NCBI GenBank assembly: GCA_903933715.1
Contig: CAIZLD010000054.1
Location: 1 to 39,083 of the forward strand
DNA from: an uncultured Spartobacteria bacterium
Lineage (GTDB): Bacteria > Verrucomicrobiota > Verrucomicrobiia > Chthoniobacterales > Chthoniobacteraceae
Direction: 5' to 3'
DNA: 39,083 bases
Shown one piece after another: positions 31,631 to 37,170 of the stretch (positions are counted from its first letter, which is position 1; every line of letters begins with the position of its first letter). The notes beneath the pieces were generated by a model. That model ran no database searches. It was not told where the DNA came from and worked only from the letters and a program-made list of their open reading frames with translations. A program made the position numbers and the translations under genes.

Positions 31631-33475
31631 TTAGCGCCCCGAATTGGCAAGTTTGGCAATCGCTTCCGGAGATGCCTGTTCCAGATCGGGTGAGATATTG
31701 AGGTAATGAGCGGTCTGTTCGCCGATCCGGGAGAAAGAAGGACCGGCCACCAGGCCGCCGTAAGTGAGGTTTTCAGCCGCCTTGGGATCATAAGCCATCA
31801 CAAGGCATACAACCTGCGGATCGTCCACGGGGAAAAAGCCGACAAAAGAGGTGACGTAGCGGTTCTCGTAATAACCGCCCCCATTGGGCTTGGCGATGTT
31901 GGCCGTGCCGGTCTTGCCGCCGGTGGAGTAGCCGGGGATGGCTGCTCCAAATGCGGTGCCGCGTTTGCTGACGACATCTTTCAACGCGGAGCGCAGCTTG
32001 GCGGCCGCTTCGGAGGACACCACTTCCCGCATCTGCACGGGGGTGAAATCGACGATGCTTTTCCCGCTCTCATCGACCACGGCATCGACGATTTGCGGCA
32101 TCATGAGATGGCCGCCATTGGCAATGGCGCTCATCGCGGCGATCATCTGGATCGGAGTGACGCAGACCCCCTGCCCCATCGGCATCCGGGTGATGGTCAA
32201 AACATTCCACCCGGCGCTCTTTGGGGAGTGGACAATGCCGGGGACTTCGCCGGGGAGATTGATGCCGGTGCGTTCGCCAAAACCGAAGGCGCGGACGTAT
32301 TCGTAAAAGCGCTGTTCACCCAGCTTCATCCCGAGCTTGGCACAACCGATGTTGCTCGATTTGACGACGACATCGAAAACATTCAGGTCGGGATGATCGC
32401 AATGGCCGTGGTCTTTGAGGATTTTGCCGCCGTAGAAAAACCGCCCCCCTTCGCAGTTGATCATGGTGTCGAGGTCCACCAGTTTTTCATTGAGGGAGGC
32501 GGAAACGGGAACGATTTTGAATACCGAGCCCGGCTCGACGACATTGATCACGGCGGCGTTTTTCATCGCCTCCGGCTTGATCTTATCGGTCTCCCCTTTG
32601 GTCAGGTCGTTCGGATCGAAGCACGGCCGGTTGGCCATGGCCAGGATGCGCCCGGTCTTGGGGTCCATCATGATGGCGGTGGCGAATTCGGGCCGGTATT
32701 GCTTGTAGAGCCCCTCCAACTCGGTCTCGACGATATGCTGCAACTGCATGTCGATGGTGAGCCGCACATTGTAGCCGTCGCGGGAGGGACGCTCCTGGCC
32801 CCGGTAGGGGACGATCTCTTTGCCGGTGCGGTCCCGCTCGATGTAGCGGAAGCCGTCATAGCCACGCAGCCATTTGTCCATGGTGCGCTCCACCCCTTCC
32901 ACGCCGACCCGCTCGCTTTCCTCCACGCCCGCAAAACGGGTTCGCTTTTCCCCGATAAACCCGAGGACATGGCACAACGTTTCGCTGTTGGGGTAGACCC
33001 GCCGGGTGTCCGGCTCAAAGAAAATCCCCCGGATCGGTTTCCGGTTCTTCGCCTGGAACTCCTCCATCCGCTGGGTCAATAACGTCGTTTCCGCTTCAGT
33101 GATCCCTTTTTTTAAAACCACGTATTTGCGGGAGGTATCGATCTTCTCCTTAAGTTTCGAGGCGGAGATCTTCAGCGGCCCGGCCAGAACGGAGGCGATT
33201 TCGGAAGGGGTCACCTTTCCGGCCGCAACGACGCTCCCATCCACCACGACGTTATTGAGCGGTTCGTTGGCCGCGAGCAATTCGCCTTTGGTGTCGAGAA
33301 TCACGCCGCGCCGGGCGGCAATGATCTGTTTTTTGACATGTTTTTCCGCCGCCAACCGCTCGAATTTCTCGTGCTCGTGGACTTGCAGATAGACCAAACG
33401 GGCCGAAAAGCCTGTAAAAGCGCACACCAAGCCAAAGCAGACAAAAATTGCTCTTACTTTGGCGGTTTTGTTCAT
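31631..33475 (-). CDS. ftsI: Septal transpeptidase FtsI (class B penicillin-binding protein)
   Basis: FtsI (PBP3) crosslinks septal peptidoglycan with FtsW. The 614-aa protein has an N-terminal membrane anchor (about 7-29), the class B dimerisation domain (RRGVILDTKGELLAAN; DTRRVYPNSETLCHVLGFIG; VGVEGVERTMDKWLRG) and a transpeptidase domain with the active serine in EPGSVFK (S317, K320), SSN (373-375) and KTGT (521-524). No PASTA domain follows. Its start overlaps the ftsL stop by four bases. Confidence 0.97.
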   Translation of the reverse strand: MNKTAKVRAIFVCFGLVCAFTGFSARLVYLQVHEHEKFERLAAEKHVKKQIIAARRGVILDTKGELLAANEPLNNVVVDGSVVAAGKVTPSEIASVLAGPLKISASKLKEKIDTSRKYVVLKKGITEAETTLLTQRMEEFQAKNRKPIRGIFFEPDTRRVYPNSETLCHVLGFIGEKRTRFAGVEESERVGVEGVERTMDKWLRGYDGFRYIERDRTGKEIVPYRGQERPSRDGYNVRLTIDMQLQHIVETELEGLYKQYRPEFATAIMMDPKTGRILAMANRPCFDPNDLTKGETDKIKPEAMKNAAVINVVEPGSVFKIVPVSASLNEKLVDLDTMINCEGGRFFYGGKILKDHGHCDHPDLNVFDVVVKSSNIGCAKLGMKLGEQRFYEYVRAFGFGERTGINLPGEVPGIVHSPKSAGWNVLTITRMPMGQGVCVTPIQMIAAMSAIANGGHLMMPQIVDAVVDESGKSIVDFTPVQMREVVSSEAAAKLRSALKDVVSKRGTAFGAAIPGYSTGGKTGTANIAKPNGGGYYENRYVTSFVGFFPVDDPQVVCLVMAYDPKAAENLTYGGLVAGPSFSRIGEQTAHYLNISPDLEQASPEAIAKLANSGR

Positions 33476-33843
33476 CGGCGGGCGACGCTGTTAGAGACGG
33501 TCCGGATTTCGCTTCCGATAACGCCCGCGGGATGCGGGAAATCAACGTGCACAATGCTGGCGGGAGCGATTTTGACCATCTTGATGAATCCCTCGTCGAG
33601 CCGTTTTTGCAATGCGGCGCAGCCGGAAAGCTGGGCGATGCGCCAGGTCAACGCCTCGTTCTTACGCCCCAGGGCGGCCAGTTCGTTTTCCATCGCTTTG
33701 ATCTCCCCGCCCCGGTTGACGATCTGGTTTTTGTAATAAACCCACGTCATTCCCCCCATCAAAACGAGGATGGCAATAATTAACCACGGTGAAAAAGCCC
33801 CCACCGGGACGGTATTTTCAAGACGGCGACGGTTAGCTGACAT
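33472..33843 (-). CDS. ftsL: Cell division protein FtsL (FtsL-like bitopic protein)
   Basis: The 123-aa product starts at ATG 33843, overlapping rsmH by 11 nt (a longer frame runs back through rsmH and is not credible). It has a short basic N-terminus, a transmembrane helix (about 18-36, SPWLIIAILVLMGGMTWVYY), then a heptad-like segment (GGEIKAMENELAALGRKNEA) typical of the FtsL coiled coil. Sequence conservation of FtsL is poor; the call rests on topology and on the invariant place between rsmH and ftsI. Residues beyond about 75 form a longer C-terminal region than in E. coli FtsL. Confidence 0.85.
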   Translation of the reverse strand: MSANRRRLENTVPVGAFSPWLIIAILVLMGGMTWVYYKNQIVNRGGEIKAMENELAALGRKNEALTWRIAQLSGCAALQKRLDEGFIKMVKIAPASIVHVDFPHPAGVIGSEIRTVSNSVARR

Positions 33844-34834
33844 AATGTTTGGCGACCACGCGGAGTTTGGCGCTGCGGGAGCGCGGGTTGCGGTTTTGCT
33901 CCTCCTCCGAAGCGATGGCCGGCTTGGGGGTGAGGAGCTGGAATTCGAAATCGGGATTGCGGCGCGGCTCCGGCCACTCGGGGCGGTCAAGCCACTCGAT
34001 GCTGCGCGCCTTGAAGAAATTCTTCACGATCCGGTCCTCCAGAGAATGGAACGTGATGACCCCCAGGCGTCCGCCGGGGTTGAGCCGGGCGGAAAAGCCG
34101 GTCAACGCCGACTGAAGGACGTCGAGTTCCCGGTTCACGGCAATGCGCAGGGCTTGGAAGACTTTGGTGGCCGGGTGGACCCGACCCCGGCGCGGGTTCA
34201 CTTTTTCCACGCTGCGCACGAGGTCAAAGGTGGTCTCCAGCGGACGTTCTTCCCGGTCGCGGACGATCCGGTGGGCGATGCGGCGGGCCGCGTTTTCCTC
34301 GCCGTAGTCGCGGAAAATGCGCGCCAGCTCCCCTTCCGGGGCAGTGTTGACGATCTCCGCCGCGCTCAACGGCGCGTCCGGGTTCATCCGCATATCGAGA
34401 GGGCCGTTCTGCTGAAAGCTGAACCCCCGTTCCGGCGTATCGAGCTGCCAGGAGGAAACGCCGATGTCCAAAAGCGCCCCGTCGATCCCTTCAATGCCCA
34501 TCCGGTCGAGAACCGAACCGACTTCCTCAAAATTAGCGCGAACCGGCGTGAACTGCTCGCCGTAGCTTTTTAAGCGTTCCCCGGCAAACGCGAGCGCTTG
34601 CGGGTCTTGATCAAGGCCGATCACCCGCGCGCCGGCTTTCAAGAAGGCTTCCGTGTGGCCGCCGCCCCCGAGCGTCCCGTCCACAAAGAGCTTCCCCGGC
34701 GCGGGCGCAAGCAGCGTCAGCGTTTGCTGAAGCAAGACCGGCTCGTGATAAGGTGTGGGGGGGTTCAAGTAACGACTCCTTTGCCGCAACCCGGGGGCCG
34801 CGGCTTCCATAAACTCGACTGCGGGGATCATCAT
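33833..34834 (-). CDS. rsmH: 16S rRNA (cytosine-1402-N4) methyltransferase RsmH
   Basis: RsmH (MraW) methylates C1402 of 16S rRNA with S-adenosylmethionine. The 333-aa protein has PYHEPVLLQQTL, the SAM loop VDGTLGGGGHTEAFL, VIGLDQDPQAL, DGALLDIGVSSWQLDTPERG, FSFQQNGPLDMRM, KVFQALRIAVNRELDVL and ITFHSLEDRIVKNFF. The N-terminus is about 25 residues longer than usual; the ATG at 34834 overlaps the mraZ stop (ATGA), which supports it. Confidence 0.97.
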   Translation of the reverse strand: MMIPAVEFMEAAAPGLRQRSRYLNPPTPYHEPVLLQQTLTLLAPAPGKLFVDGTLGGGGHTEAFLKAGARVIGLDQDPQALAFAGERLKSYGEQFTPVRANFEEVGSVLDRMGIEGIDGALLDIGVSSWQLDTPERGFSFQQNGPLDMRMNPDAPLSAAEIVNTAPEGELARIFRDYGEENAARRIAHRIVRDREERPLETTFDLVRSVEKVNPRRGRVHPATKVFQALRIAVNRELDVLQSALTGFSARLNPGGRLGVITFHSLEDRIVKNFFKARSIEWLDRPEWPEPRRNPDFEFQLLTPKPAIASEEEQNRNPRSRSAKLRVVAKHYVS

Positions 34835-35286
34835 AGACCAAGCTCGTTCGCAAGATCTCGACTCTCGACCTCGTCAGCGGACTGCTCGGCAGCCCACCGC
34901 TCGGTGTTCCAAATTTCAAACTGGCCGAAACCGCCGACCAGCATCACCTCGCCCTGCAACTCTGCCTTAAGGCAAAATTCCGGGGGCAAAACCATGCGCC
35001 CCTGCTTGTCCACGCAACACCGATGCGCCCCTGCGGAGACCATACGGATCAGCTTTTGCTGCTCGGCAACGGTCTTGTCTTTGCGGGCTTCAATGGCGGC
35101 CACCGTTTTCCGAAGTTGATCCGGCGGCAAGACCGTGAGATGACTCCCGGTGCTGTGAATGCGCACATAAAGCACCCCTTCTTCACCCGAACGCCAATCC
35201 GCCGGAATGGTGAGCCGGTTTTTCGTATCGACCCCGTGCCGGAACTGACCGGTGAAGGTGATGGAATTGTAGGCGTCGGAGGGCAT
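34831..35286 (-). CDS. mraZ: Transcriptional regulator MraZ
   Basis: MraZ is a DNA-binding protein of the SpoVT/AbrB fold that represses its own dcw operon in studied bacteria, binding repeated TGGG-type boxes. The 151-aa protein has two such half domains: FRHGVDTKNRLTIPADWR near 16-33 and HRCCVDKQGRMVLPPEF near 88-104. It is the first gene of the cluster, and its own upstream DNA carries phased TGG boxes over a promoter, consistent with autoregulation here. There is no Shine-Dalgarno ahead of the ATG. Confidence 0.95.
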   Translation of the reverse strand: MPSDAYNSITFTGQFRHGVDTKNRLTIPADWRSGEEGVLYVRIHSTGSHLTVLPPDQLRKTVAAIEARKDKTVAEQQKLIRMVSAGAHRCCVDKQGRMVLPPEFCLKAELQGEVMLVGGFGQFEIWNTERWAAEQSADEVESRDLANELGL

Positions 35287-35290
35287 TGGG

Positions 35291-35335
35291 TGGAATTTCG
35301 TGGGATTTTAACCCATTTCGTTCCAATTTCAACCA
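35291..35335. promoter_or_regulatory. Candidate MraZ operator: five TGG-type boxes on a 10-bp grid
   Basis: On the + strand, boxes lie at exact 10-bp steps: TGGAA (35291), TGGGA (35301), ACCCA (35311), TTCCA (35321), AACCA (35331), each followed by an A/T-rich 5-nt spacer. Read on the mraZ strand: TGGTT, TGGAA, TGGGT, then inverted TCCCA and TTCCA. TGGG-type boxes with 5-nt spacers are the described MraZ target. The array spans the promoter and ends 5 nt before the mraZ ATG. Confidence 0.65.
35305..35332 (-). promoter_or_regulatory. Candidate sigma70 promoter of the dcw operon
   Basis: On the - strand, TTGAAA (35332-35327) and TAAAAT (35310-35305) are separated by 16 nt; each matches the consensus at five of six positions. 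Transcription would start near 35298, leaving a leader of only about a dozen nt before the mraZ ATG. Both hexamers lie inside the box array described above. Confidence 0.6.
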
Positions 35336-35418
35336 CCATTCTTCAAAATTTCAGAATCTTTTCTCTGGAGAGCCGGTTGCGTATGGAGGCGACCGGGTCG
35401 ATTAATTAAGTTTGCCCT

Positions 35419-37170
35419 ATGAGCACCGTTCTTCGCGTCTTCCGATACTTGCGCCGCTACCCCTGGCTGGCGGCCGGTACGCTCGGCTGCGCCATCCTGA
35501 TGTCCTCAATGGTCATCGTGTTTCCAAAAGTCAGCCAACTCGCCATCGACGACATCTCCAAAGGCCGGGGCGACCGGCTCGTGGGACTGACGCTTTTGGC
35601 CTTGGGCGCGTTCTTTCTGGAGGAGCTTTTCAACGCCCTGCGCATCCGGCTCAACAACACGTTTGAGCAGCGGGTCATTTTTGATCTCCGCAGCGATCTC
35701 TACGCGCACATCCAGCGGCTGCCGGTCGGCTGGTTCGACAACCGCTCCACCGGGGATGTGATGACCCGGCTGCTGGAAGATGTGACTTCGGTCGAACGGG
35801 TTCTCATTGACGGGATTGAGCAGGGAGTCGTTGCGCTGCTGATGGTGGGGCTCGCGGCGACGATGTGCTTTGTTTACAGTGCGAAACTGGCTTTGCTGGC
35901 GCTCACGCCCATTCCGTTTTTGGTCGCGGGCGCCCTGACCTACACCCTCACCGCCCATCTGCGTTACCGGGTCCAGCGCAAGGCCGCCTCTGCGATGAAC
36001 GCGCTGCTTCACGACAACCTCGCCGGAATCCGCCAAATCAAAACTTACGTCAGGGAATCGCAGGAGCACGCCCGGTTTAACGGCGCGAGCCGCAATTTGA
36101 TGGAGGCGACGCTGGTCGTCATGCGGGCGTGGTCGCTCTATAACCCGTTGATGGGCTTCTTCGCCTCGTGCGGGATGGTGCTGATCATCGGCTTTGGCGG
36201 GCAGGCCGTCCTGGCGGGAACCCTCAAGCTCGGCGATCTGGTCGCGTTCCTGATCCTCGCCCGGTTGCTCTACGAGCCGATCAGCCGCCTGCATCAGCTC
36301 AACCAGTTAATCCAGGCCGGACGCGCCGCCGGGGAGCGGGTTTTCGAGATCCTCGACACCGAAGTGGAAGCCAATGCCGCCGGGCCGGAACGCCAAACCG
36401 GGCGGTCCCGCGCCGAAGCGCGCTCCCTCTGCGGCGATGTCCGGTTCCAGAACGTCTGCTTTTCCTACGACGAAGCGATTCCCGTGCTCCACAATATCAA
36501 TCTCCACAGCAGCCCTGGCGAGACGATCGCGCTGGTCGGCTCGACCGGCGCGGGCAAATCGACCCTGGTCAACCTGCTCACGCGCTTTTACGAGTTCGAC
36601 ACGGGGGAAATCCTCGTGGATGGCCATCCGCTGCGTGAAATCCCCAAGGATGTCCTGCGCGAAGCGGTGGGGCTGGTGACGCAGGAAAGTTTTCTCTTCA
36701 ACGGCAGCGTGCGTGACAACCTGCGCCTGGGCAAACCGGACGCCACCGACGAAGAGATGATGGCCGCCGCCCAAGCCGCCAACGCCAGCGCGTTTATCGA
36801 ACGGCTCCCGGAAGGTCTCGACACCGTAGTCGGGGAGCGTGGCGTCAAGTTGAGTGTGGGCGAAAAACAGCGCGTCTCCATTGCCCGCGCCCTGCTCAAA
36901 GACCCGCCCATCCTGATCCTCGACGAAGCCACCGCGAGCGTCGATACCGAGACCGAGCGGCAAATCCAGCAAGCGCTGGACCGGCTGATGGCGCATCGGA
37001 CCAGCTTCGTGATTGCCCACCGGCTTTCCACCGTCCGCCACGCCGATCAAATCCTCGTGATGGAACGGGGCCGGATCGTCGAGCGCGGCACGCACGAGGA
37101 GTTGCTCGCCCAAGCGGGGATTTATGCCCGGCTCTGTGAAAACAGCTTTTTGGGAGTGGAGACTGCGTAA
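35419..37170 (+). CDS. ABC exporter, MsbA-like (fused membrane and ATPase domains)
   Basis: A 583-aa half-transporter that would work as a homodimer in the inner membrane. The first part (about 1-305) has six predicted helices with the exporter coupling regions (GWFDNRSTGDVMTRLLEDV). The ATPase domain (about 338-583) has Walker A GSTGAGKST (374-382), Q-loop VTQESFLFNG, signature LSVGEKQRVSIARALL, Walker B ILILDEATASVD and the switch His in VIAHRLSTVRHA. Residues about 318-337 form an unusual basic insert before the ATPase domain. Lipid A/phospholipid export (MsbA) is likely given the nearby LPS and wall genes, but drug or peptide export cannot be excluded. It is divergent from mraZ, sharing a 132-bp intergenic region. 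Confidence 0.9.
   Translation: MSTVLRVFRYLRRYPWLAAGTLGCAILMSSMVIVFPKVSQLAIDDISKGRGDRLVGLTLLALGAFFLEELFNALRIRLNNTFEQRVIFDLRSDLYAHIQRLPVGWFDNRSTGDVMTRLLEDVTSVERVLIDGIEQGVVALLMVGLAATMCFVYSAKLALLALTPIPFLVAGALTYTLTAHLRYRVQRKAASAMNALLHDNLAGIRQIKTYVRESQEHARFNGASRNLMEATLVVMRAWSLYNPLMGFFASCGMVLIIGFGGQAVLAGTLKLGDLVAFLILARLLYEPISRLHQLNQLIQAGRAAGERVFEILDTEVEANAAGPERQTGRSRAEARSLCGDVRFQNVCFSYDEAIPVLHNINLHSSPGETIALVGSTGAGKSTLVNLLTRFYEFDTGEILVDGHPLREIPKDVLREAVGLVTQESFLFNGSVRDNLRLGKPDATDEEMMAAAQAANASAFIERLPEGLDTVVGERGVKLSVGEKQRVSIARALLKDPPILILDEATASVDTETERQIQQALDRLMAHRTSFVIAHRLSTVRHADQILVMERGRIVERGTHEELLAQAGIYARLCENSFLGVETA

Follow-up and report, generated by a model that had tools for sequence, protein, structure and literature searches.

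Phased direct and inverted boxes upstream of mraZ in a genus of Chthoniobacterales, probably a new form of MraZ operator

MraZ, a ring-forming protein with an AbrB fold, is among the most widespread regulators of bacteria, and to our knowledge the way in which its ring contacts DNA is known for few systems. The stretch of DNA analyzed here (39 kb, hereafter the window) carries an mraZ gene at the head of a dcw cluster, directly preceded by boxes that lie in phase and point both ways. The locus thereby raises the question of whether MraZ units recognize DNA with a fixed polarity or may also read half-sites from the opposite strand of the same operator.

The box array at the head of the dcw cluster

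On the plus strand, TGGAA, TGGGA, ACCCA, TTCCA, and AACCA start exactly at 35291, 35301, 35311, 35321, and 35331, where the preliminary description had placed them. Read along the mraZ strand, these are three direct boxes (TGGTT, TGGAA, and TGGGT) followed by two inverted ones (TCCCA and TTCCA) in 10-bp steps, also as described before. On that strand, the operator reads, in order, TGGTTGAAAT TGGAACGAAA TGGGTTAAAA TCCCACGAAA TTCCACCCAATG. The features of the region are the following, where "genus genomes" refers to the four congeneric genomes with upstream DNA.

31631 to 33475, minus strand: gene of an ftsI-type penicillin-binding protein of the dcw cluster (Pfam search)
33833 to 34834, minus strand: rsmH (mraW), second dcw gene (Pfam search, E 4e-104)
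34831 to 35286, minus strand: mraZ, presumed regulator, first dcw gene (Pfam MraZ, E 1.1e-16)
35291 to 35295, plus strand: box 5, second inverted box, TTCCA on the mraZ strand; TCC[AG]CC in 4/4 genus genomes
35301 to 35305, plus strand: box 4, inverted, TCCCA on the mraZ strand and TGGGA on the plus strand, one 10-bp step past the last direct box; TCCCAC invariant in 4/4 genus genomes
35305 to 35310, minus strand: -10-like hexamer TAAAAT, after a 16-nt spacer; invariant in 4/4 genus genomes
35311 to 35315, minus strand: box 3, last direct box, TGGGT; TGG invariant in 4/4 genus genomes
35321 to 35325, minus strand: box 2, direct, TGGAA; TGG invariant in 4/4 genus genomes
35327 to 35332, minus strand: -35-like hexamer TTGAAA of the predicted dcw promoter; invariant in 4/4 genus genomes
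35331 to 35335, minus strand: box 1, direct, TGGTT, preceded by TGG, which gives TGGTGGTT; invariant in 4/4 genus genomes
35419 to 37170, plus strand: ABC exporter gene, divergent from mraZ (Pfam search); inverted relative to five related genera

The D-x-x-x-R motif marks each MraZ/AbrB-like half of an MraZ protein, and the protein encoded here has two such halves (PF02381) with the motif in each. It aligns over residues 11 to 131, both halves included, to PDB 1n0e and newer MraZ entries; in the alignment to 1n0e, DTKNR and DKQGR stand opposite DAKNR and DTAGR. After mraZ, the gene order continues with rsmH, a frame at the ftsL position, the ftsI-type gene, and a murE-like frame, murE being judged from its translation. 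The reading frame at the ftsL position (33472 to 33990) is without any Pfam match.

The five on-grid TGG/CCA units form a run that is unique in the window, and elsewhere in its 39 kb no run of four or more such units was found. Among 300 windows simulated under a first-order Markov model, none held a run of five, and runs of four or more occurred at 0.047 per window. The spacer motif CGAAA, pointed out earlier for its repetition, is indeed present twice; the repeat is not kept in the congeners, for which reason it looks incidental, and we rejected CGAAA as a spacer motif.

Conservation in the genus and across the order

The genus was sampled by five genomes including the window's own, four of them with the region upstream of mraZ, the contig of G038 ending at mraZ. 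Conservation in close relatives had been proposed beforehand as a check, and both boxes and spacing were kept in all four: in one register, every genome carries TGGTGGTTGAAATTGG, TGG, TAAAATCCCAC, and TCC[AG]CC. Among these four genomes, 14 of the 15 box-core columns are invariant, compared with 11/23 of the columns that belong to neither boxes nor hexamers (Fisher p 0.004), and the promoter hexamer columns lying outside box cores are all invariant (12/12). The exact layout, three direct boxes followed by two inverted ones, is matched once per genome, always at mraZ, in 4/5 genomes of the genus; with one mismatch allowed, the five genomes have few further matches, a reversed control pattern matching at a comparable level.

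For the order Chthoniobacterales, 121 regions upstream of mraZ were compared, representing 13 families and 38 genera; MraZ was present in 196 of the 213 genomes searched. These regions comprise 38 of the 39 of family f1 (L003 was dropped because its contig ends at mraZ), 23 others among the matches listed, and 60 chosen to cover genera; family f10 is under-sampled, with 5 loci among the matches listed. Left uncounted were L031, L033, L034, L035, and L036, which share their upstream DNA with counted loci, and L032, a copy of L003. The automatic array call was poor at a few loci (e.g., L044 and part of genus g8), which were kept in the counts. The last direct box, located by its T and G alone with no use of CC, served as the anchor for all offsets; arrays hold 3, 4, 5, or 6 direct boxes in 20, 73, 27, and 1 loci, respectively.

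One 10-bp step past the last direct box (+12), CC occurs in 87/121 loci and, by majority, in 25 of the 38 genera; the 42 remaining offsets average 13.8 loci, and the highest count among them, 40, falls at the adjoining +11 (as in CCC). Box 4 of the window is thus this order-wide terminal inverted box. The full CCA is found at +12 in 49/121 loci (other offsets, mean 4.2 and maximum 11), and on-grid CCA upstream of the array (-8, -18, and -28) in none of the 121. Like the window, other families of the order have direct GTGG/TTGG boxes; CCA at +12 occurs in families f1, f8, f11, and f12, each with one on-grid inverted box downstream of the direct ones, as opposed to two in the window's genus. Families f6 and f7 have CC at this offset without the A, and CC is absent there from f2, f3, f4, f5, f9, f10, and f13 (14 loci). 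Altogether, CC at +12 is missing in 34/121 loci which, with the seven families that lack it, indicates that the inverted box is not needed for every MraZ. On a tree of 61 MraZ proteins, the label "CCA at +12" changes at least 11 times, 5 of the changes being forced by well-supported branches; hence, either there were repeated gains or losses of the inverted box or its third base is subject to drift. The base next to the inverted core matches the direct boxes of the same operator weakly (26/49 versus 20.5 shuffled, p 0.036, rows not independent). Genus g8 comprises two mraZ lineages that differ greatly, also in operator type (L039, L040, and L045 on the one hand and L030, L037, L038, and L041 to L044 on the other), one lineage with the on-grid inverted box and the other without it.

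The second inverted box is, on four sequences, special to the genus of the window. At +22, CCA is present in 3/4 genus loci and CC[AG] in 4/4, whereas CCA at +12 together with +22 occurs in 0/117 loci outside the genus, CC at both offsets being found in 11 of these. The mixed operator had been presented as an unusual form: judged by its conservation it is real, although an operator with one inverted end box is common in much of the order. The genus operator may have arisen from the flip of a fourth direct box, or it may combine three direct boxes and the usual terminal inverted box with an extra one.

Beyond the order, the comparison used 49 loci in other orders of the class, selected from a 383-genome sample of the phylum so that these loci cover genera. 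CCA at +12 was found in 2/49 of these loci (other offsets, mean 1.1 and maximum 5) and CC in 10/49 (mean 3.5 and maximum 13), and because of these counts, we allow that there may be a faint trace of the terminal inverted box outside the order. In the same class, mraZ of L177 (family f16) is preceded by no fewer than six direct TGG boxes, an array of unusual length. Elsewhere in the phylum, the mraZ arrays of L135 and L141 are made of AGG boxes in place of TGG with the 10-bp period kept, which suggests a shifted MraZ specificity.

The predicted promoter and the neighboring exporter gene

The boxes overlap the predicted dcw promoter and start: a TTGAAA-N16-TAAAAT promoter lies within the array on the minus strand, from 35332 to 35305, as stated in the preliminary description. 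It was the sole match in a promoter scan of both strands of 34801 to 35900, where shuffles gave a mean of 0.3. In the rest of the order, a TTGAC -35 stands upstream of the array; it was found upstream of the last direct box in 111/117 loci outside the genus and in 0/4 inside (Fisher p 2.5e-5, rows not independent). Behind box 1, relatives often have TTAAAA or TTTAAA, a likely -10, where the genus has TTGAAA, a likely -35, and the -10 of the genus, TAAAAT, sits behind box 3. In this genus, the ancestral TTGAC -35 is gone from the aligned sequences, and the predicted promoter is located ~20 bp nearer to mraZ, inside the operator, a position that is special to the genus. Despite the moved promoter, the inverted box is still in phase with the direct boxes.

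The neighbor of mraZ differs as well. The ABC exporter gene is divergent from mraZ in the window, G035, and G037, 132, 58, and 59 bp from the mraZ start, respectively, while in genera g2, g4, g6, g8, and g9, with one genome each, it lies upstream of mraZ in the same orientation. There is no ABC ortholog near mraZ in G036, and no match to the gene at E 1e-100 was found in G036 or G038. In two congeners (L216 and L217), the 58 to 59 bp between the divergent start codons are nearly filled by the MraZ-box array. If the events took place in the order that we infer, the old -35 may have been lost through an inversion with one end at the operator.

Reading of the inverted boxes

The Escherichia coli MraZ operator is said in PMC8475190 and PMC7761207 to have been described at mraZ1p by Eraso et al. 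in 2014. As seen in the K-12 sequence, this operator resembles that of the window in its position upstream of mraZ at the head of the dcw cluster and in its TGGG-type boxes with a 10-bp period; in contrast, its boxes are direct only, whereas the operator of the window ends in two inverted boxes. The E. coli boxes are placed downstream of the -10 in the available text of PMC7761207, while the array of the window spans from the -35 to the expected start. As far as the accessible parts of these sources go, MraZ is a repressor in E. coli and M. genitalium (PMC8475190), and MraZ sites, where described, are given as direct repeats or as repeats (PMC8475190, PMC5138195, PMC7761207, PMC12283558, and PMC11796246). 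In the same partial texts, the Mollicutes sites are AAAGTG[T/G] direct repeats, and those of Burkholderia cenocepacia are four 7-nt repeats with 3-nt spacers, i.e., a 10-bp period (both PMC8475190 and PMC7761207); both share a GTG/TGG core with the window. The Mollicutes sites are termed direct repeats and the Burkholderia sites simply repeats, and, unlike in the window, no inverted box is mentioned in those parts. The earlier claim that described MraZ operators are direct repeats only holds for the E. coli sequence and fits the absence of any mention of an inverted box in these partial texts, although the wording for Burkholderia is less specific. Within the open-licence literature, a scope that leaves out the primary E. 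coli MraZ paper, the text at hand yielded no report of inverted MraZ boxes. The operator of the window has three direct TGGNN boxes with a 10-bp period and two further, conserved boxes that are inverted; since direct-only is a description of known cases and no demonstrated requirement, we count it as a variant rather than exclude it.

We consider it likely, from comparative sequence data, that the array is an autoregulatory dcw operator and that MraZ reads its terminal half-sites from the opposite strand. Consecutive DNA-binding units of the MraZ ring would line up along a single side of the helix, with one half-site per 10-bp turn; three half-sites would be read from the mraZ strand, and the array would be capped by half-sites with an identical core (GG) on the other strand. 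In the genus, the half-sites extend over the whole predicted promoter, from the -35 through the spacer and the -10 to the expected start site; MraZ bound there would keep RNA polymerase out and thereby repress mraZ together with the downstream genes. We infer this binding of the inverted boxes from their core, their phase, their one-sided position, and their independence from start codon and promoter; repression would be the likely outcome.

These last properties also bear on an unlikely alternative, in which only the direct boxes are MraZ sites and the on-grid CC(A) has some other function, for instance in the initially transcribed region, as the site of a second DNA-binding protein, or as context of the start codon. 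Such a role would suit box 4 of the genus, which falls at the expected start site, the inverted box of family f11, which lies a near-constant 6 to 8 nt before the next ATG, and the seven families without an inverted box. However, across genera the distance to the next ATG varies, most of them falling between about 6 and 64 nt, whereas the phase to the boxes is constant, and we rejected start-codon context as the source of the inverted box on this difference between genera. Moreover, the phase was retained although the promoter moved, and the inverted core is the direct-box core on the other strand. Pairing between TGG and CCA could instead reflect secondary structure in the leader, as a hairpin or as a G-quadruplex like that of the Staphylococcus aureus mraZ promoter, where one is located downstream of the promoter in the accessible part of PMC11796246. 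In 22/49 loci, versus 12.9 shuffled, the fourth base of the last direct box does pair with the base at the mirror position, but the following pairs are not significantly above shuffles (5 versus 11.5 and 14 versus 11.4), and an RNA hairpin was rejected since the enrichment is limited to this one pair, the first next to the core. Lying upstream of the expected start, the direct boxes of the genus would moreover be absent from the RNA; they have only 2 to 3 G here, and the inverted boxes are C-rich, which makes structure a very remote explanation.

The exporter gene offers another reading for the genus, in which the inverted boxes became direct boxes for the ABC gene after its inversion and MraZ controls both directions. 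The change from a co-oriented gene in g2, g4, g6, g8, and g9 to a divergent one in the window, G035, and G037 speaks for it, as does the short distance in the latter two, where any ABC promoter must overlap the operator or mraZ. Nevertheless, G036 has the same five boxes without an ABC ortholog at this place, and the inverted box elsewhere in the order is left unexplained. The scan for a separate ABC-direction promoter gave nothing convincing (best about 7/12 matches), and altogether we hold control of both directions to be improbable as the source of the inverted boxes.

Returning to half-sites read by MraZ from both strands, the five-box layout with inverted ends probably adds a new form to a regulatory switch that is well known. 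A more far-reaching proposal, which we put forward only tentatively, is that the inverted terminal half-site caps the array and fixes the number of MraZ units that load, as an undescribed class of operator in one order; in the genus, inversion of the exporter gene would then have removed the old -35, the promoter would have been rebuilt inside the operator, and the operator would have become a two-way switch for dcw and the exporter. The genus provides a readable case, its predicted promoter having shifted by ~20 bp inside an operator of unchanged phase, and with its phased boxes pointing both ways, this natural operator puts to the test whether DNA recognition by MraZ units has a fixed polarity.
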